DNA from: Cytophagales bacterium
GTDB taxonomy: Bacteria > Bacteroidota > Bacteroidia > Cytophagales > UBA9547
DNA length: 35,513 nt
Direction: 5' to 3'
NCBI GenBank assembly: GCA_004294265.1
Contig: REAG01000121.1
Location: forward strand, 1-35,513
The notes below the pieces were generated by a model. It did not search any database and was not told the origin of the DNA. It was given only the letters and a program-made list of their open reading frames with translations. Below are positions 6,954 to 31,972 of the stretch, piece by piece; the stretch's first letter is position 1, and every line of letters starts with the position of its first letter. The translations under genes and the position numbers were made by a program.

Positions 6954-6991
6954 TGTAATAAGGGAATTAAAACTTGTTATAATTTATAATA

Positions 6992-7111
6992 GGGAATCTC
7001 TAAAAACCCCAATATTATTTTTAAAAACCCGACCCAAATCAATTTCTGCTACGAAACCGCAGAATCCAAGTGGGTGGGATTCAACGGAATTGAGGTTTTT
7101 TAGGAGTACCC
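6992..7111. mobile_element. MITE-like repeat, copy 1 (120 bp)
   Basis: This is a 120-bp element that recurs at 10609-10727 and 23722-23840 with strong similarity. It begins GGGAATCTCTAAAAACCCC and ends GGTTTTTTAGGAGTACCC; the two ends are imperfect inverted repeats, extendable to about 22 bp. It is flanked on both sides by AATA, consistent with a 4-bp target duplication. Internally TTCTGC/GCAGAA and GAATCC/GGATTC form hairpins. It has no coding capacity. It sits between the convergent histidine kinase and RsmB-like genes. A long read-through frame across it is not considered a gene. Confidence 0.8.
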
Positions 7112-10555: not shown

Positions 10556-10585
10556 ACCCTTTCTGTAAAAAGAAAGGGTTTTTAT
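10556..10585 (+). terminator. Intrinsic terminator of metY
   Basis: ACCCTTTC / GAAAGGGT (8 bp, 8-base loop), followed by a T-rich run beginning at 10579, lies 30 bases after the metY stop. Confidence 0.8.
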
Positions 10586-10608
10586 TTTTATTATAAAAAT
10601 AAATTTAT

Positions 10609-10727
10609 GGGAACCTCTAAAAACCCCAATATAGTTTTCAAAAACCCCACCCAAACCAATTTCTGCTACGAAACCGTAGCATCCAAGCCAAAGGGCTTCA
10701 TCGGAATTTAGGTTTTTAGGAGTTCCC
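10609..10727. mobile_element. MITE-like repeat, copy 2 (119 bp)
   Basis: This is the second member of the 120-bp family. It begins GGGAACCTCTAAAAACCCC and ends GGTTTTTAGGAGTTCCC, flanked by TTAT on both sides. The inner part differs from copies 1 and 3 but keeps hairpins: GCTACG/CGTAGC with a 4-base loop and AAGCC/GGCTT. It lies downstream of the metY terminator and before the minus-strand acetyltransferase end. A 65-codon minus-strand frame through it is chance. Confidence 0.8.
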
Positions 10728-10853
10728 TTATATAAATTCAACTAAAATTGCACTAATAAAAATTTTATTAATTAATTCAACCTTTGCACATTTCAATTTA
10801 AAATTAAAATAAAGAAGTAAAATCATAAATTTTTACTTTTACCAAATTTATTT

Positions 10854-23144: not shown

Positions 23145-23487
23145 ATTTCTAAAGTGATAATAAAATTATTTATGTTATCTTTTAAAAAAAATAATCATTA
23201 GATTTAAAAGTGCAAAATTGAGAAATATTTAATTTAAACACAAAGATACTTCTAATGTAACAATTCAGTTCCAAATTTAGAATTAAAATTAAGATTTTCC
23301 AAAACTGATTTATTGATTTTGATTGTACTTTCATTCTTTTCGACTTAGCTCCTTTTGCTTTCCTATTTTTTGTATAGAAATCACTAATGTTACCCAAAAA
23401 GAGTAAAATGCTAATAATTATTTTAGAAAATGGTATCGAAATTATTATCAAAAGTAGTGAATTTACTAATATCATATAAATAAAATC

Positions 23488-23587
23488 AATGCGCCACTAA
23501 CCAATTAACACCACTTCCCATACCTATTTCCATAGGAACTTCTAAAGGTATGGCGTTTTTCATTAAGTTTTCGATATAGAGTTTGAA
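23488..23587 (-). pseudogene. Second extra copy of the polA 3' end (last ~30 codons)
   Basis: On the minus strand this encodes the polA C-terminus in frame, NLMKNAIPLEVPMEIGMG followed by SGVNWLVAH and a TGA stop. About 10 of 97 bases differ from the real polA tail at 26051. It shares several differences with the other fragment (25423-25575), for example in the stretch encoding PLEVPMEIG, so the two fragments are closer to each other there than to the intact gene. Similarity ends abruptly near 23587. Confidence 0.88.
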
Positions 23588-23721
23588 AATAAAAATTACT
23601 TGATCAAAATTTCTGCTTGTATATTTAGTCGGACTTTATAGGTTACGAAAAACCTTTTCATTGTTTCATTTTCAATTTTATGAAAATTCGGATGCTTTTT
23701 ATTAGCAACATAAGCTCTTCA

Positions 23722-23840
23722 GGAAACCTCTAAAAACCCCAATATTATTTTTTAAAACCCCACCCAAACCAATTTCTACTACGAAACCGCAGAATCCAAG
23801 TGGGAGGGATTCAACGGAATTGAGGTTTTTAGGAGTTCCC
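23722..23840. mobile_element. MITE-like repeat, copy 3 (119 bp)
   Basis: It begins GGAAACCTCTAAAAACCCC and ends GGTTTTTAGGAGTTCCC, nearly identical internally to copy 1, including the hairpin-forming AGAATCC...GGATTC part. Flanks are TTCA on the left and TTTA on the right, a possible decayed 4-bp duplication. It lies 135 bases from the polA-tail fragment. Confidence 0.8.
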
Positions 23841-24153
23841 TTTAGGAAGAGTAACCTTGATTATTTTTCGCTTTCTCTCGAACCAGTGATTAGAAATTAA
23901 AGCTGTTTATTCGTAAGAAATTGTCATTGAGTTTTATGAAATTATAGGCATTGTTAATTTGAAATTGAGATTCGTTACACCTTACAAAATTAAATAAAAA
24001 GCTTAATGGGTGAATTTTAGAATACTATCCTACTTTACCCAATTGACGAATTTTATATCATTACAGAAAAAGAAAAATATAATTTTCAAATAATAAATAA
24101 AAACCATTTTTCTAACTTTTTATATAATAATTTCATGATTCGTCTTTTTTTTG

Positions 24154-24161
24154 TACATTTG
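24154..24161 (+). promoter_or_regulatory. -7 element (TACATTTG) of the RelE/ParE-like pair
   Basis: This is an exact TAnnTTTG match 19 bases before the ATG at 24181. No clear -33 TTTG is present at the right spacing. The short leader and lack of other start signals fit an autoregulated toxin-antitoxin promoter. Confidence 0.55.
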
Positions 24162-24180
24162 AATATAAAGTTGTTGATAT

Positions 24181-24381
24181 ATGGAAACATTAGTAATCAA
24201 AACCAAATCTAAAAGTGATACAAAAGCATTAAAAGCATTTGCAAGTGCTCTAATGTTAGAGGTATATTCTGCAAAAGAGGCAGAAGATATTGCATTAGCA
24301 AATTACATGAAAGAATGTAAAAAATCCGGTCTTGTTGGTTTAGAAAAAACTAAGGTTTTTTTTAATAATTTAGGAAAATGA
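24181..24381 (+). CDS. Putative antitoxin of a RelE/ParE-type pair
   Basis: The gene encodes 66 residues: METLVIKTKSKSDTKALKAF, a short strand followed by helices, then a charged helical C-terminus. This N-terminal strand-plus-helix pattern is common in small Bacteroidota antitoxins of the DUF2683 type. Its stop overlaps the ATG of the next gene by four bases (24378-24381), the usual arrangement for antitoxin before toxin. A promoter element lies directly upstream. The assignment rests on order, size and partner rather than on a strong motif. Confidence 0.65.
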   Translation: METLVIKTKSKSDTKALKAFASALMLEVYSAKEAEDIALANYMKECKKSGLVGLEKTKVFFNNLGK

Positions 24382-24638
24382 ACGTAAATGCCACTGCAAA
24401 ATTCATTGAACAAGCAAATAAGCAAACAATTGAGAATCAAATTAAAATTAAGGAAATTATCAATCGTATGTATTTAGCAAAAAATATTTTTGAAATTGAA
24501 CATGAATCACTTGTAGGATATCCATACCTATATAAAGTTAATCTTGGAATTTTTAGTATTTGTTTTGAAATTACAAAATGCGAAATCGAATTAATAGGTA
24601 TAGTTCCAACAGGAAATGAGCTAACCTTGTTTTTTTAG
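24378..24638 (+). CDS. Putative RelE/ParE-superfamily toxin
   Basis: The gene encodes 86 residues. The order is an N-terminal helix pair (KFIEQANKQTIENQIKIKEI), then NIFEIEHESLVGYPYLYKV and the strand-rich end LGIFSICFEI...IELIGIVPTGNELTLFF, which follows the RelE/ParE layout of two helices and a four-stranded sheet. The typical RelE arginine/lysine catalytic set is not obvious, so mRNA cleavage versus gyrase inhibition cannot be decided. It overlaps its presumed antitoxin gene by four bases and ends at a hairpin shared with the convergent DUF2442 gene. Confidence 0.65.
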   Translation: MNVNATAKFIEQANKQTIENQIKIKEIINRMYLAKNIFEIEHESLVGYPYLYKVNLGIFSICFEITKCEIELIGIVPTGNELTLFF

Positions 24639-24640
24639 CT

Positions 24641-24670
24641 ATTTATAATGCTGATTTCTTCATTATAAAT
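24641..24670. terminator. Hairpin between two convergent TA-type operons
   Basis: ATTTATAATG (24641-24650) pairs perfectly with CATTATAAAT (24661-24670) around a 10-base loop, in the 33-base gap between the plus-strand toxin gene and the minus-strand DUF2442 gene. On the plus strand it is followed by TTTTAAG. It could act for both directions, though the T run is weak. Confidence 0.6.
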
Positions 24671-24671
24671 T

Positions 24672-25121
24672 TTAAGAAATAACTATTAATTTAATTCCCA
24701 ATTCTTCAATAAACCTTGTTTTAAGCTGTCCTCTACGTACTTTATTCATCACATCCATTATTTTAAAACCATATTTTTGAGCATATTTAGTTTGTGTTAG
24801 TTCTTTTTTGGAGTCAATAATTATTTTTTCTTCTTGAATTAATTTACTATCTTGGTAAATTTTGAGTGTATCAAATTTCAAAAAATCTAATTTACCAAGT
24901 GAATTTGTGTACGTTATGTTTTTCCAGCACAATGCACCTTTTTCTGTTAAACTTACGGAAGAAAAAGTAGATTTATCCAATAATTTTTCAAATAAATTAT
25001 TTGTCATAAACTCTTTTTTAGTGAATTTTATTTGTCTAAGCTCGTTATTATTAAACCTTAACTTGATTTGATAAGGTTTAATTTCTTCAATTTTTAATAT
25101 GTAAGGGAGCGTATTTTTCAT
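24672..25121 (-). CDS. DUF2442 protein with C-terminal helical (HTH-like) extension
   Basis: The gene encodes 149 residues. The N-terminal part (about 8-75: KIEEIKPYQIKLRFNNNELR ... GALCWKNITYT) matches the small DUF2442 domain, often coupled to DUF4160. The C-terminal 45 residues (KKELTQTKYAQKYGFKIMDV, then NKVRRGQLKTRFIEELGIKL) are helical and basic, resembling a DNA-binding helix-turn-helix; DUF2442 proteins are usually only 80-90 residues, so this is an extended version. It follows the DUF4160 gene with a four-base ATGA overlap (25118-25121). Likely the antitoxin-like partner, but the roles are unproven. Confidence 0.75.
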   Translation of the reverse strand: MKNTLPYILKIEEIKPYQIKLRFNNNELRQIKFTKKEFMTNNLFEKLLDKSTFSSVSLTEKGALCWKNITYTNSLGKLDFLKFDTLKIYQDSKLIQEEKIIIDSKKELTQTKYAQKYGFKIMDVMNKVRRGQLKTRFIEELGIKLIVIS

Positions 25122-25348
25122 TTTCTATTGCTTGGATTTAGTTTTTCAAATTCTGACAAAAACTCTTTTTGAAACTTTAAAATTAATTTGATTGCTTTTT
25201 GAAGTGGTTTATTTGGCATATTACCTGCCAAAAACTCCAGTGTTTTTATGTTAATTAATATTTCAAATTCAGCATAAAAAACATGTACATGCGGAGGATT
25301 ATGGTCTCTAGAATAAACCTCTATGCTAATTCCTTCTGATTCAATCAT
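25118..25348 (-). CDS. DUF4160 protein, putative toxin-antitoxin partner
   Basis: The gene encodes 76 residues with the family hallmark SRDHNPPHVHVFYAEFEI near the N-terminus (histidines at about 16, 20 and 22), followed by two helices rich in lysine. DUF4160 proteins are small, very often next to DUF2442, and have been proposed as toxin-antitoxin components; biochemical activity is not established to my knowledge. The gene overlaps the DUF2442 gene by four bases. A 22-bp perfect inverted repeat starts 15 bases upstream of its ATG, where an operator would be expected. Confidence 0.8.
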   Translation of the reverse strand: MIESEGISIEVYSRDHNPPHVHVFYAEFEILINIKTLEFLAGNMPNKPLQKAIKLILKFQKEFLSEFEKLNPSNRK

Positions 25349-25362
25349 AAACTATTTTACAA

Positions 25363-25411
25363 ATATAAACAATTGTATTGACATATAAAATGTCAATACA
25401 ATTGTTTATAT
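25363..25411. promoter_or_regulatory. Perfect 22-bp inverted repeat upstream of DUF4160-DUF2442
   Basis: The arm at 25363-25384 (ATATAAACAATT...TTGACAT) is an exact reverse complement of the arm at 25390-25411, with ATAAA between. Each arm contains the palindrome CAATTG and TTGACAT. It lies 14 bases from the DUF4160 start and 11 bases from the polA-tail fragment. It may be an operator for the gene pair, a terminator for hicAB, or an insertion end. The symmetry is unusually exact for an AT-rich genome. Confidence 0.8.
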
Positions 25412-25422
25412 ACAGTTTTTCT

Positions 25423-25575
25423 CTAATGCGCCACCAACCAATTTACTCTACTTCCCATACCTATTTCCATAGGAACTTCTAAAGGCATAGCGTTTTTCAT
25501 AAAGTTTTCGATATAAGGTTTAATTTGCTCTAGTTCAGACTGATACACATAAAAAACTAACTCATCGTGTACTTG
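25423..25575 (-). pseudogene. First extra copy of the polA 3' end (last ~50 codons)
   Basis: The minus strand encodes QVHDELVFYVYQSELEQIKP through MKNAMPLEVPMEIGMG and NWLVAH-stop, matching the polA end from motif C onward, with Asp to Tyr in VFYV and Gly to Arg near the end. About 14 of 153 bases differ from the intact gene. Similarity stops sharply at 25575, eleven bases before the hicB stop. A chance frame of 62 codons runs into it from hicB sequence, but there is no reason to think it is expressed as a protein. Confidence 0.9.
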
Positions 25576-25585
25576 CGAACAATAT

Positions 25586-25798
25586 CTATACCAAAACCAT
25601 TTCAGCATCAAAATATTTGGGTTCTAGAATAGTCATATTGTCTTCTTGTAAAACTTCAAGATGCAAATGAATGGCTTCATTTATATTTGATTTAGCTTCT
25701 AAAAGTGTATTTCCAAAAGAATAGCATCCCTCTAAATCTGGAACTCTACCCCAAATTGTGCCATCTTCAGCACGTTCGTATATTACTAAATATTTCAT
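25586..25798 (-). CDS. hicB: HicB-type antitoxin
   Basis: The gene encodes 70 residues with the HicB partial RNase-H-like fold: MKYLVIYERAEDGTIWGRVP, DLEGCYSFGNTLLEA, then NINEAIHLHLEVL and a short C-terminal strand. It neutralises HicA. The common C-terminal DNA-binding domain (HTH or RHH) is absent, so autoregulation by this protein alone is doubtful. It starts 11 bases after hicA. Its stop lies 11 bases from the breakpoint of the polA-tail fragment, so the cassette ends very close to the gene. Confidence 0.9.
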   Translation of the reverse strand: MKYLVIYERAEDGTIWGRVPDLEGCYSFGNTLLEAKSNINEAIHLHLEVLQEDNMTILEPKYFDAEMVLV

Positions 25799-25809
25799 AT
25801 AATTTTAAT

Positions 25810-25998
25810 TTAAGCCCATTTTGCGATTTTAAATATACTTTTTACAACACCTATTGATGGTTCTGCGTTCATTCCATGATTAGGCAAAGTGATTAAATCA
25901 GTCACTCCTGCTTTTTTAAACACCATGTGGCTACCTTTTTGACTTCGCAACACCCAGCCGTCATTTTCCAATCTTTTAATTATTTCTTTTACTTTCAA
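25810..25998 (-). CDS. hicA: HicA-type mRNA interferase toxin
   Basis: The gene encodes 62 residues with the double-stranded-RNA-binding-like HicA fold: MKVKEIIKRLENDGWVLRSQ, KGSHMVFKKAG with catalytic His24, then LITLPNHGMNAEPSIGVVKS. It inhibits translation by cleaving mRNA unless bound by HicB. Order toxin-antitoxin is the usual one for this family. Its ATG is 52 bases after the stop of polA on the same strand, so read-through transcription from polA is possible. Confidence 0.92.
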   Translation of the reverse strand: MKVKEIIKRLENDGWVLRSQKGSHMVFKKAGVTDLITLPNHGMNAEPSIGVVKSIFKIAKWA

Positions 25999-26050
25999 AT
26001 TAAAATAAATTTAGTGTTTTGATTTATATTTTCCAAATGAAATATCAACT

Positions 26051-28897
26051 CTAATGCGCCACCAACCAATTCACACCACTTCCCATACCAATTTCCATCG
26101 GAACTTCAAGTGGTATGGCGTTTTTCATAAAATTTTCGATATAGGGTTTAATTTGCTCTAGTTCAGACTGATACACATCAAAAACTAACTCATCGTGTAC
26201 CTGTAGCACCATTTTTGAACGGAGTTTTTCTTTCTTCATCCAAGCATGAATATCTATCATGGCTTTTTTTATGATGTCGGCAGCAGAGCCTTGGATAGGA
26301 GCATTGATGGCATTTCGTTCGGCATATCCACGCACAGTCATGTTTCGAGAATTGATGTCTCTCAAATAGCGTCTTCTAGCCGAAATGGTAGTAACATATT
26401 CGGTCTCTCGAGCATTGTCTATACACTCACTCATGAAATTGCGAACGGCAGGGAATTCTTTCCAGTAAGCATCTATTATCTCACCTGCCTCTTTGCGTGG
26501 AATCGAAAGTCTTTGTGCTAATCCAAATGCTGAAATGCCATAAATAATCCCAAAATTGACCATTTTGGCTTTTCTCCGCATGTCAGAAGTGACTTCCTCA
26601 AGTCCTACTTTAAATACTTTTGAAGCCGTAGTTGAGTGAATATCCACGCCATTTCTAAAAGCGGCTATCATGCTTTCGTCTTTGCTAAACGATGCCATAA
26701 TGCGAAGTTCTATCTGCGAATAATCGGCAGAGAGAATCACCGAATCTTTGTCTCTAGGAATAAAAGCCTTACGAATTTCTTTGCCTCTATCGGTACGAAT
26801 CGGTATGTTTTGCAAATTTGGATCTGTGGAACTCAGTCTTCCTGTAGCGGCAACTGCCTGATTATAAGAAGTATGTACCATACCCGTATGTGGATTTATG
26901 AGTAAAGGTAACGCATCTACATAGGTAGATTTTAGTTTTTGCAATTCTCTATATTCTAATATTTGAGCGGCTATAGGATGCTCGTAAGCTAGTTTTGACA
27001 AAATTTCCTCGCCTGTGGCATATTGACCTGTTTCTGTTTTTTTAGGCTTATCTTCGAGTTTTAATTTTTCAAATAATATAATTCCTAACTGTTTTGGCGA
27101 AGCTACATTGAATTTTTCTCCTGCTAATTCATAAATTTTATCTTCAGCAAGAATGCTTTCTTTGCCCAAAATATCCGAAATTTCACTCAAAACAGTAGTG
27201 TCAATTTTTACCCCATCTCGTTCCATGTCTGCCAGTACATATATCAAAGGATTTTCTATGGATTGGAACAACGGTTCTAGTTGTGCACTTTTGAGTAAAG
27301 GTTCAAACGTATGTTTCAATTTCAAAGTAATGTCAGCATCTTCAGCTGCATACACTGCCACTTTTTCGATTTCTACATCACGCATATTGCCTTGAGAAAC
27401 GCCTTTTTTACCAATCAATTCAGTAATTGAAATGGGGGAATAATTTAGAAATGATTTTGCCAAAATATCCATTCCATGACGTTGGTCGGGTTCTATGAGA
27501 TAATGTGCCAACATGGTATCAAACAATTTGCCTTTGACTTCGATGCCATAATTGCCCAAAACCAAAATATCGTATTTAATATTATGTCCAATTTTAGTGC
27601 AATTCTCGTTGAGAAATACGTCTTTGAATTCGTTCACTATTTCTTGGGCTTCTTTTTTATCAGCAGGAATAGGGATATAAAATGCTTCTGATTGATAATA
27701 CGAAATGGACAAACCTACCAGTTCTGCCCGAATGGCATCAGTGCTGGTAGTTTCGGTGTCAAAACACAATTCAGTCTGTAGTAAAAGATATTTAATCAGT
27801 TCAGTTCTTTCTTCTTTGGTTTTTACCAAATGATAATCGTGTGAAATATCATCTATCGTTTGGCTTTGAATGGAAACTATAGGCTCGAAGGTTTGATTTT
27901 CATCTTTTGCAAAAGCTTCAGATTCGACTTTTTTAGGTTCTGTGGGAGCATCGAAAAGACCAAATTGCCCAGCAACAGCAGGAGATTTAGTAGCTTTTTT
28001 TGCTGGTGATGCTTTGGCTTCGCTCCCTTCCGATGGCAAAAGTTTGGCTTTCATTTGCCTAAATTCAAATTCATCGAGCAATTGGCTCAAATTTTCTTTG
28101 TTGGGTTCAGTTACTTTTAGATTTTCAAAATCTACAGCTACCGGCACACCTATATGAATAGTCGCCAATTCTTTAGACATGATGCCTTGAGCTGCAAAAT
28201 TCACAACATTCTCTTTTTGTTTGCCCGAAAGTTTATCGGCATTGGCAATAAGATTTTCTACTGTTTCGTATTCTGCAATCAGTTTTTGAGCCGTTTTTTC
28301 ACCTATGCCTGGAATGCCTGGAATATTATCGACAGAATCGCCTTGCAATCCTAAAATATCTCGCACTTGGTCTGGGTGTTTTATACCAAATTTTTCCAGT
28401 ACCTTAGCCACATCCAAAGCTTCGGCTGGTTTGCCCATAAAAGCAGGCTTGAAAACAAAAATATGTTCTGTCACCAACTGGCAATAATCTTTATCTGGTG
28501 TCATCATATATACATGACAATTTTCAGAAGCAAATTTCTTTGCCAAAGTACCTATGATATCATCTGCTTCGAAACCCTGCAATTCCAAAAGTGTGATATT
28601 CATAGCCCTAACCAATTGCTTGACCAAAGGAATATTAATAGAAATATCTTCAGGTTGCTCTTGGCGTTGGGCTTTGTACTCGGCAAACTGTTCGTGCCTA
28701 AAAGTAGGTCCCGACATGTCAAAACACACCGCAATGTGTGTAGGTTTTTCTTTTTGTAAAACTTCTAAAAGTGTATTGGCAAATCCAAAAGTAGCACTGG
28801 TATTCAGCCCTTTAGAATTGATTCGTGGATTTTGCGAAAAAGCAAAATGAGCCCTGTATATCAGAGCCATAGCATCGAGAAGAAATAGTTTTTGCAA
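26051..28897 (-). CDS. polA: DNA polymerase I with 5'-3' and 3'-5' exonuclease domains
   Basis: The 948-residue repair and lagging-strand polymerase is counted from TTG at 28897 (MQKLFLLDAM...). The frame extends to another TTG at 28948, adding 17 residues outside the family alignment; no ATG precedes the first beta strand. Domains: 5'-nuclease (1-285) with FEADDIIGTL and DSVDNIPGIPGIGEKTA; Ala/Lys/Pro linker (290-340); 3'-5' exonuclease with DTET (380-383), HNIKYD (Asp443) and YAAEDAD (Tyr516, Asp520), so proofreading looks intact; polymerase with DYSQIELR (Asp725), RRKAKMVNFGIIYG and QVHDELV (His901-Glu903). Two partial copies of its 3' end lie downstream. Confidence 0.96.
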   Translation of the reverse strand: MQKLFLLDAMALIYRAHFAFSQNPRINSKGLNTSATFGFANTLLEVLQKEKPTHIAVCFDMSGPTFRHEQFAEYKAQRQEQPEDISINIPLVKQLVRAMNITLLELQGFEADDIIGTLAKKFASENCHVYMMTPDKDYCQLVTEHIFVFKPAFMGKPAEALDVAKVLEKFGIKHPDQVRDILGLQGDSVDNIPGIPGIGEKTAQKLIAEYETVENLIANADKLSGKQKENVVNFAAQGIMSKELATIHIGVPVAVDFENLKVTEPNKENLSQLLDEFEFRQMKAKLLPSEGSEAKASPAKKATKSPAVAGQFGLFDAPTEPKKVESEAFAKDENQTFEPIVSIQSQTIDDISHDYHLVKTKEERTELIKYLLLQTELCFDTETTSTDAIRAELVGLSISYYQSEAFYIPIPADKKEAQEIVNEFKDVFLNENCTKIGHNIKYDILVLGNYGIEVKGKLFDTMLAHYLIEPDQRHGMDILAKSFLNYSPISITELIGKKGVSQGNMRDVEIEKVAVYAAEDADITLKLKHTFEPLLKSAQLEPLFQSIENPLIYVLADMERDGVKIDTTVLSEISDILGKESILAEDKIYELAGEKFNVASPKQLGIILFEKLKLEDKPKKTETGQYATGEEILSKLAYEHPIAAQILEYRELQKLKSTYVDALPLLINPHTGMVHTSYNQAVAATGRLSSTDPNLQNIPIRTDRGKEIRKAFIPRDKDSVILSADYSQIELRIMASFSKDESMIAAFRNGVDIHSTTASKVFKVGLEEVTSDMRRKAKMVNFGIIYGISAFGLAQRLSIPRKEAGEIIDAYWKEFPAVRNFMSECIDNARETEYVTTISARRRYLRDINSRNMTVRGYAERNAINAPIQGSAADIIKKAMIDIHAWMKKEKLRSKMVLQVHDELVFDVYQSELEQIKPYIENFMKNAIPLEVPMEIGMGSGVNWLVAH

Positions 28898-29277
28898 AGG
28901 AATATATTTTAATTTTAACAAAATTAATTTTAAATAGCTATTAAACAATCAAAAATGTATTTAAAGAAAATTAAAGTAATAATTTTAAATAACTCATTTC
29001 GATTATAATTTTAATTTTGGATATGAATGATACATTTTTTAAGTTTGCAAATAAAAAAGTTGATTTACAATAAAGCTTATTTCCTAATTCTATTTTGAAA
29101 AAAAATATTTACCTATACTTTTGGAAAAAATACGCATTTATTAAACTTTATTTCCTAAAAATCGGCATTTAATAATTCTAAATTATATAAAAGCCTTTTT
29201 AAGGCAACTGAGGTTGTTTCACAATTTGTCATATAAGTAAAAAAGAAAGAATTATTCAGATAAAATTAAAATTAATT
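28898..29277. other. 380-base gap between divergent polA and the accessory block
   Basis: There is no coding frame of note. The gap contains a small hairpin GCCTT-TTT-AAGGC (29193-29205). It must hold the polA promoter on the minus strand, but no clear TAnnTTTG match at a good distance is seen. It probably contains the left boundary of the inserted ORF6N/restriction-modification block. Confidence 0.5.
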
Positions 29278-29603: not shown

Positions 29604-31205
29604 ATGAACGCCACAATAACTGAAACTTCAAAAAATAAATTTGGGCAATACTTTACTCCAAAAGTAGTTGCTAATTTTATGATTGAAATGGCGGACATTT
29701 CGGTAAATTCAAGCATATTAGAGCCTTCTTGTGGAGAAGGGATTTTTTTAAAATTATTACATGATAAGGGATTTGATAATTTGATGGCTTTTGAAATAGA
29801 TGAAGAATTAGCACAAGATTTTTCAAATGTAAGATACGAAAGTTTTGTTTCAGCAAAAATTTCAGAAAAATTTGATTTAATTATTGGTAATCCGCCCTAT
29901 ATCCGATGGAAAAATTTAGAAGACGACTTAAAAAAAGAACTTTCTTCAAATCCAATTTGGAACAAGTATTTCAACAGCCTTTGCGACTATTTATACATTT
30001 TTGTTCTCAAATCTATTGAATTGTTGAACGAAAATGGACAGCTTATTTTTATTTGTCCAGAATATTGGATGAATACCACTCATTCTATTTCTCTTCGCAA
30101 TTACATGGTTGCTAATGGCTTTTTTGAAGCGATTTATCATTTAAACGAAACGCCAATTTTTGAAAAAGTAACGGTTTCTATTATGATTTTTAAATTCATA
30201 AAAAGTAAATCTAAAACAGAAAAAATCAAAGTTTCAAAGTTTTATGCCAATCAAAAACTAACTTTTGAAACGCTTCAAAAACTAAAATTTCAAGTTGAAT
30301 TAAAAGATGCCGAATATATAGAAGTAACTCAATTTAAAACTAATGAAAGATGGCTTTTGCAATCCGACAATGTGCGTGAGGAGTTGCGTGTTCTTGAAAA
30401 TAATTGTAAAATAAAAAATGGAAAATCATTTCTAAATTTATTTTGTAACGAAAAGCAAGAATTTCATACTATTGGAGAATTCTGCGATATTGGTAATGGC
30501 TTGGTTAGTGGTTTAGATAAAGCGTTTCAAGTAAATGGACACGTTTTAACTGAAAATGAAAAAAAGGCAACCCTAAATGTTGTAAAAGCAAAAGATTTGA
30601 AACCATTTTTTGCGGAAAACATTACAAAATATATTTTTATTGAAGAGGGACTTGTAGAAACTACATTTATAGAGGAATACCCTAATTTTCACTCCCATTT
30701 TAAAAAACATAAAGAAGATTTAGGCAATAGATACCAATACAACAGAAAAATAAACTATTGGGAATGGGTATTTTTGAGAAATTTTAATTTATTCAACAAT
30801 CAAGATAAAAGAATATTTGTGCCTTGTAAGGAGCGAATATCAAATAAAGATTATTTCCGTTTTGCACTCGTGGACAAAGGCATTTTTCCAACCCAAGACG
30901 TAACTGCCATATTTAAAAAGCCTCATGTAAAGGAAAGTATTGAGTATTTTTTGGCTTACTTAAACAATCCTATCGTTTTTGATTGGCTAAAATGTAATGG
31001 AATTGTAAAAGGAAATATCGTAGAGTTTTCTGAAAAACCTATTTCAAGTATTCCATTCAGAGTAATTGATTGGGCAAATGAAAAAGAAGTTGCTTTACAC
31101 GAAAATATAACAAATGCAACAAAAAAATATCTTGAAACAAAAAAACTAGATGAGCTAAATAAAATCAACGATTTTTTTAATTTACTTTTTAATCTTAACA
31201 AATGA
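29604..31205 (+). CDS. HincII-type N6-adenine DNA methyltransferase
   Basis: This is a 533-residue modification enzyme of the gamma class. Motif X is FGQYFTPK (13-20), SAM motif I is LEPSCGEGIFL (39-49) and catalytic motif IV is IIGNPPYIRW (NPPY at 96-99). The remaining 350 residues are the target-recognition part. Partnered with a HincII-like endonuclease through a four-base overlap (31202-31205), it should protect GTYRAC by adenine methylation; that specificity is inferred from the partner. M.HincII is slightly shorter (about 500 residues). No controller (C) protein gene is found upstream. It is likely horizontally acquired. Confidence 0.92.
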   Translation: MNATITETSKNKFGQYFTPKVVANFMIEMADISVNSSILEPSCGEGIFLKLLHDKGFDNLMAFEIDEELAQDFSNVRYESFVSAKISEKFDLIIGNPPYIRWKNLEDDLKKELSSNPIWNKYFNSLCDYLYIFVLKSIELLNENGQLIFICPEYWMNTTHSISLRNYMVANGFFEAIYHLNETPIFEKVTVSIMIFKFIKSKSKTEKIKVSKFYANQKLTFETLQKLKFQVELKDAEYIEVTQFKTNERWLLQSDNVREELRVLENNCKIKNGKSFLNLFCNEKQEFHTIGEFCDIGNGLVSGLDKAFQVNGHVLTENEKKATLNVVKAKDLKPFFAENITKYIFIEEGLVETTFIEEYPNFHSHFKKHKEDLGNRYQYNRKINYWEWVFLRNFNLFNNQDKRIFVPCKERISNKDYFRFALVDKGIFPTQDVTAIFKKPHVKESIEYFLAYLNNPIVFDWLKCNGIVKGNIVEFSEKPISSIPFRVIDWANEKEVALHENITNATKKYLETKKLDELNKINDFFNLLFNLNK

Positions 31206-31972
31206 ACGTAAATTATACAGAACTTATAAAGAAAGTTAAAGGAACAACTGTACCTAAACCGCTTTCAGGAACATTGTCGGGACACGCTGCGGGTGAACCT
31301 TTTGACAAGCACGTTTATAATGAAATCAAAAAGCAGTTTCCTAAAAATACGTTTAGACAATACGAATATTTAAACGAACTATATACCCAAAATTCGGAAG
31401 TTATTGGCTATGAAGCAAGAGAAAAATTATTCAAATCGCCTTCTGTTCACTTTTTATTAGCAAGAGGGAAAGAAGTTACTAACAAATGGAGTAGTGAAAA
31501 TCAATTTGACGAAAAACAAAACGACACAGCAGATGTTTTGGTTGTCTTAGACAATTTCTATAAAATTATTGATATAAAAACCCGTAATTTATCAAAATCG
31601 GCACAGCCGCCAAACATTATTTCTGCCTTCAAATTAGCTCAAGTTTGTGCTAAAATGATTGACAATAAAGAGTTTGATAATTTTTCAATTAACTATTTTG
31701 AGATTGATTGGGAATTAGAGAAAAATAAATTAATTTGCAGAGATGCTCACTTTGCAAGTTTATTCAAGTGTAACCCAAACAATCTTTACATTAATTGGGC
31801 TGCAGCCATGCAATTACAGTTTCATGTAAACGATTTAGATCAAGATTTTGAAGGAAACAGAGAAGTTTGGGCTAAAACATATTTGAAGCATTTTGTAACT
31901 CAAGCAAAAAAACGTGCAAACGATATGATTACAAAATTTGTAAAACCATTTGAGAAATATATAAATTTATAA
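31202..31972 (+). CDS. HincII-family type II restriction endonuclease
   Basis: The 256-residue protein is close throughout to R.HincII (about 258 residues), recalled by stretches such as KPLSGTLSGHAAGEPFDKHV, KQNDTADVLVV, NIISAFKLAQVCAKMIDNKE and NWAAAMQLQFHVNDLDQDF. Catalytic residues of the PD-(D/E)xK site are conserved with a constant offset of three: Asp111, Asp124 and Lys126 (DIKTRN) against Asp114/Asp127/Lys129. It should therefore be active and cut GTYRAC (blunt, GTY/RAC). The start overlaps the methyltransferase stop (ATGA). purL begins 23 bases after its stop. Confidence 0.95.
   Translation: MNVNYTELIKKVKGTTVPKPLSGTLSGHAAGEPFDKHVYNEIKKQFPKNTFRQYEYLNELYTQNSEVIGYEAREKLFKSPSVHFLLARGKEVTNKWSSENQFDEKQNDTADVLVVLDNFYKIIDIKTRNLSKSAQPPNIISAFKLAQVCAKMIDNKEFDNFSINYFEIDWELEKNKLICRDAHFASLFKCNPNNLYINWAAAMQLQFHVNDLDQDFEGNREVWAKTYLKHFVTQAKKRANDMITKFVKPFEKYINL

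Follow-up and report, generated by a model that had tools for sequence, protein, structure and literature searches.

Genetic context of the DUF4160 operon

The window, by which we mean the whole 35,513-nt stretch of Cytophagales DNA analysed here, carries a DUF4160 gene and a DUF2442-like gene on the minus strand. Read along that strand, the order is polA (26051-28948), hicA-hicB (25998-25586), a copy of the polA 3' end, an inverted repeat, the DUF4160 gene (25348-25118) and the DUF2442-like gene (25121-24672), the last two overlapping by 4 nt. The features at the centre of the analysis, in this order, are:

25423..25577, minus strand: copy of the polA 3' end, 155 nt, 91% identical, ending at the polA stop and lying outside the putative operator
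25390..25411, no strand assigned: right arm of the perfect inverted repeat, 22 nt, ATGTCAATACAATTGTTTATAT
25387..25390, minus strand: TTTT, a possible weak -33 element, proposed from sequence only
25385..25389, no strand assigned: loop between the arms, 5 nt, ATAAA
25363..25384, no strand assigned: left arm of the perfect inverted repeat, 22 nt, ATATAAACAATTGTATTGACAT
25360..25367, minus strand: -7 box TATATTTG, a perfect match to the Bacteroidota TAnnTTTG
25118..25348, minus strand: DUF4160 protein, DhiT-type toxin, 76 aa (PF13711, E 1.3e-14)
24672..25121, minus strand: DUF2442-like antitoxin, 149 aa, proposed binder of the repeat (PF10387 and a structural model)

The DUF4160 protein scores 54.5 bits against PF13711 (cut-off 23) and also matches the DhiT equivalog NF048015 (E 2.3e-17), there with 63.4 bits, below the cut-off of 100. 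Its 149-aa partner is matched weakly by PF10387 (14.0 bits vs a cut-off of 23.9) and very weakly by the NCBIfam DhiA model (NF048016; 14 of 200 bits). Two neighbouring gene groups were also observed. A plus-strand pair at 24181-24638, inside the array of polA-end copies described below, encodes proteins of 66 aa (weak DUF2683) and 86 aa (no Pfam match) and looks like another toxin-antitoxin (TA) module; between polA and the next gene, an Eco57I-type methylase adjoins a HincII-type restriction endonuclease (29604-31972).

A long perfect inverted repeat fused to a promoter-like box

The initial annotation described exact 22-nt arms around ATAAA, 14 bases before the first gene and next to a polA-tail fragment, and each of these points holds: the arms (25363-25384 and 25390-25411) are 100% complementary, the distance to the DUF4160 ATG (25348, minus strand) is 14 bases, and on the far side the stop codon of the polA-end copy (25423) is 11 bases away from the repeat. 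No other perfect hairpin in the window is as long, the runner-up having 15-nt arms. A 257-kb sample of the same genome, on which our hairpin statistics for this genome are based, holds one longer perfect hairpin (24 nt) and four with 17-18-nt arms, and several of the hairpins in this sample resemble ordinary terminators with T-tracts. Arms of at most 14 nt arose in 2 Mb of third-order Markov sequence, and the 22-nt inverted repeat is far beyond chance.

As minus-strand RNA, the repeat folds at -29.9 kcal/mol (z = -7.8 vs dinucleotide shuffles), and the only match in an Rfam scan of the window was a tRNA. So strong a hairpin could be an intrinsic terminator, acting either on the minus-strand polA/hicAB transcript or on plus-strand transcripts from the 24181-24638 pair, and a terminator scan does flag a site of terminator type on the plus strand, with T5 a few bases past the stem. 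However, the minus strand after the stem reads TTGTAAAATAG, without a T-tract, whereas several other long hairpins of this genome do have adjoining A/T tracts; the plus-strand site lies 725 nt beyond the nearest plus-strand gene and is antisense to the operon; and the hairpin is absent behind polA in sister species. We consider a terminator unlikely and rejected it, the sense strand having no T-tract.

A second alternative derives the repeat from a dispersed palindromic element of the REP or MITE kind, as a copy or a remnant. The genome does carry one such element, of ~120-150 nt with inverted ends and with at least 41 matches (40 candidates scored), but its sequence differs from that of 25363-25411. 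An 18-nt core of the arm, allowed up to three mismatches, was found across the 3.4-Mb genome no more often than its reversed control (9/7 vs 10/8), and a 37-nt pattern spanning most of the repeat had no exact match in 2.9 million viral contigs. With the repeat in single copy, this derivation was likewise set aside as highly improbable. The dispersed element itself occurs in the window at 6981-7111, 10585-10729 and 23696-23845, and has 43 weaker matches in the related genome G006.

The Bacteroidota -7 consensus is TAnnTTTG. A perfect instance, TATATTTG on the minus strand (25367-25360), joins directly onto the end of the repeat nearest the gene, with the ATG 11 nt further on, such that the palindrome overlaps the promoter-like region of the TA operon. 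The TTTT in the loop region, 19 nt upstream of this box, could act as a weak -33 element of the operon promoter, although the match is poor. We looked at 14 related Bacteroidota operons, counting the window itself and one antitoxin that has no DUF4160 neighbour; in 11 of them a TAnnTTTG box occurs no further than 75 nt from the start, against an expectation of ~0.12 boxes per 75 nt. In several of these operons, the window included, a palindrome adjoins or overlaps the box (at L059, for example, ATGTATCTAATTAGATACATTTG).

A predicted winged helix at the antitoxin C-terminus

The window antitoxin has no recognisable HTH_3 domain, and a PDB sequence search with it gave no match. Its AlphaFold model, built on an alignment of five sequences, has a mean pLDDT of 86.7 and folds residues 110-147 into two helices and a beta wing. 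The best Foldseek match of the model is NE0471 (2auw, 'putative DNA binding protein'; 65 columns, E 5e-3, prob 1.00), which we take to be a match of the N-terminal DUF2442 part; further matches of 40 columns are to BldC-DNA complexes (prob 0.99, rmsd 1.4-1.6), which we take to involve the C-terminal part, the Foldseek output giving no residue ranges in either case. The 149-aa antitoxin is thus predicted, by model and fold search, to end in a BldC/MerR-like winged helix, in line with the earlier remark that the DUF2442 C-terminus looks DNA-binding.

A homologue at locus L050 is 42% identical to the window antitoxin and reaches 22.4 bits against PF10387; its corresponding C-terminal part shows weak matches to HTH_Tnp_1, HTH_17 and MerR. 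Among the relatives, it alone shares the window's type of antitoxin tail, and upstream of its operon a weak palindrome (p 0.70) lies beside a perfect TTTG-N19-TATATTTG promoter. We also searched class-wide with a profile for antitoxins with BldC-like tails; the C-termini that were inspected proved to be HTH_3-type or bare, so that the closest comparison is this single locus; the inference is therefore good at the level of the partner class and thinly compared for the exact partner type.

Palindromes accompany DNA-binding-type partners in related operons

We assembled a set of homologous operons (n=116) from GTDB contigs and from genomes belonging to the order and the class, and scored the best palindrome in the 70 nt before each DUF4160 start against 200 dinucleotide shuffles, calling it significant at p <= 0.05. 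Partners of 140-182 aa or of RHH-like type were classed as DNA-binding-type, and those of at most 125 aa as bare DUF2442. This split is mostly by length, with Pfam spot checks finding HTH_3 in several long partners, and the RHH class was assigned by eye, its one scanned member having no Pfam match.

Significant palindromes are unevenly spread: 21/42 operons with a DNA-binding-type partner have one vs 5/74 of those without (Fisher 1.6e-7). The difference persists when DUF4160 sequences of >65% identity are collapsed (13/30 vs 2/31, p 0.0009), when the window and the RHH-like partners are left out (17/36 vs 5/74; de-duplicated, 10/25 vs 2/31, p 0.003) and, as a small comparison, in Bacteroidota alone (4/10 vs 2/32, p 0.02). 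The expectation that similar palindromes would stand before other DUF4160-DUF2442 operons is thus borne out for half of those with a DNA-binding-type partner and mostly fails for the rest; a general lack of inverted repeats ahead of homologous pairs, which would have spoken against the operator, was not observed. Among the plasmid relatives that we inspected, partners are short or not listed.

The palindromes fall into families, GTATCTAATTAGATAC-like in Bacteroidota and TATAGAAATnATTTCTATA in Geobacter relatives, with arms typically of 7-11 nt, much shorter than the 22 nt of the window. In two genomes (G737 and G590), the Bacteroidota motif, allowed at most one mismatch, matches solely at the operon. 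At L208 in G590, the palindrome AGTTGCCTAGTTAGGCAACT lies ~75 nt upstream of the match to a DUF2442-HTH gene, before which we found no DUF4160 reading frame. The degenerate inner palindrome of the window repeat, TTGACAT-N5-ATGTCAA, is no more frequent in the genus than its control and hence does not point to a regulon extending past the operon.

An array of polA 3'-end copies

The window holds two copies of the polA 3' end (25423-25577 and 23486-23584), and three lie behind polA in G006 (L047: 6177-6425, 5235-5313 and 4284-4411), where they are interleaved with DUF6934 genes, a gene for a 283-aa protein and a BrnT-like gene. Copies of ~80-250 nt thus alternate with TA-like pairs in two species of the genus (window 23486-26203; L047 4284-7320). 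In a third species of the genus, G005, a TA-like reading frame, recognised by eye, also stands behind polA before the contig ends (L048 4935-5219). Of 390 genomes of the order that we surveyed, nearly all of those with a match had just one polA end, and only a few had one second match.

All copies stop at the polA stop codon, and their upstream ends are variable. They are 85-93% identical to their own polA over the last 78-150 nt, comparable to the 86-91% between the polA genes of sister species, and the window copies are slightly nearer to the polA of G005 (91%) than to their own (87-88%, last 78 nt). The differences in the longer copies fall mostly at third codon positions (e.g. 3/0/11). Because of these third-position differences, and because divergence from the resident polA is like that between sister species, the sequences suggest imported polA ends that diverged while coding, and not copies that arose by local duplication and then decayed. 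As the mechanism, we infer that incoming DNA recombined at the polA end by a single crossover. Somewhat more speculatively, the polA 3' end in this genus may be a serial docking site, a view to which we give rather less than even weight: TA cassettes would arrive with a relative's polA end and recombine such that polA regains a working end, pushing the older end downstream and leaving a tandem record of insertions. Each cassette would then bring its own regulated promoter, here with the 49-bp palindromic operator, or be transcribed behind polA.

In such a region of repeated cassette insertion, a repeat that sits at the edge of a cassette, with a duplicated polA end 11 nt away, could itself be a cassette boundary or recombination site through which the DUF4160-DUF2442 pair entered behind polA. 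However, at the other polA-end junctions that we examined, in this genome as well as in G006 and G005, the sequences diverge right after the polA stop and show no such repeat, and the array has no recombinase gene; we rejected this role, which appears most improbable given these junctions.

The repeat as a probable promoter-operator

In our preferred reading, which we consider likely, the inverted repeat serves as promoter-operator for a TA operon of the DhiTA type (DUF4160-DUF2442) controlled by its antitoxin. This is because the repeat is beyond chance and single-copy with a promoter box at its edge, because palindromes go with DNA-binding-type partners and the predicted fold resembles DNA-bound BldC, and because the upstream region of a published relative, dhiTA, is repressed by the antitoxin and more so by the complex. 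The initial annotation had left the choice between an operator bound by the DUF2442 protein and a cassette boundary; promoter overlap, the predicted winged helix and the palindromes of relatives favour the former, and the other junctions examined, which lack such a repeat, speak against the latter.

Under this operator reading, the operon promoter would run into the repeat, with its -7 box TATATTTG at the gene-proximal end and its -33 region in the loop. We infer that the 149-aa protein binds the 25363-25411 repeat and represses: its C-terminal winged helix would contact the two-fold symmetric DNA, and the bound protein would block RNA polymerase, probably binding more tightly when toxin is bound to the antitoxin, and repression of the operon would lift once the antitoxin is degraded. 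The arms are far longer than a single dimer would need. BldC binds DNA as a row of monomers, and our guesses for the window are two stacked dimers or overlapping BldC-like sites.

Comparison with known systems

The array resembles, by analogy, the insertion with long target duplication described for restriction-modification modules, which are flanked by ~100-nt, variable direct copies of the target (PMC3874152). In both cases, modules of selfish type are flanked by direct target copies; in the polA array, unlike the restriction-modification case, TA-like pairs have built up repeatedly at the end of a single gene, and every copy ends at the polA stop codon.

An experimentally tested DUF4160/DUF2442 type II TA system is dhiTA of Dickeya dadantii 3937 (PMC8198452; NCBIfam NF048015/NF048016), for which toxicity, neutralisation and autoregulation were shown: the antitoxin represses its 100-bp upstream region by about 50% and the complex does so more strongly, with no operator named (PMC8198452). 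Like dhiTA, the window has a DUF4160 toxin gene first and an overlapping DUF2442-like gene second, with the promoter region just upstream of the pair, the region through which autoregulation is known in Dickeya. Unlike dhiTA, its proteins stay under the NCBIfam cut-offs (63 bits against 100 and 14 bits against 200), its antitoxin tail is BldC/MerR-like by predicted fold, and it has a 49-nt perfect palindrome, whereas the Dickeya paper leaves the operator unnamed. The DUF4160-DUF2442 persistence module (PEM) of Thermus plasmids, whose first ORF acts like a toxin and second like an antitoxin (PMC12724237), corresponds in domain pair and order, but its partner has 92 aa and lacks the extra C-terminal domain. 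Similar in layout are the DUF2442-HTH_3 operons of other Bacteroidota (L052, L054, L059, L218 and others), where a palindrome likewise overlaps or adjoins TAnnTTTG before DUF4160; theirs, however, is a GTATCTAATTAGATAC-like motif of 14-20 nt overall, and the tail is HTH_3 and not BldC-like.

DhiTA modules are widespread, and their autoregulation has been shown once, without a named operator. Our comparison provides candidate, testable operator motifs for several DUF4160-DUF2442 branches and a simple rule, namely that operator palindromes accompany antitoxins with a DNA-binding-type tail and are mostly missing with bare DUF2442. The window shows a variant in which the HTH_3 tail of relatives is swapped for a predicted BldC-like winged helix and paired with an unusually long palindrome.
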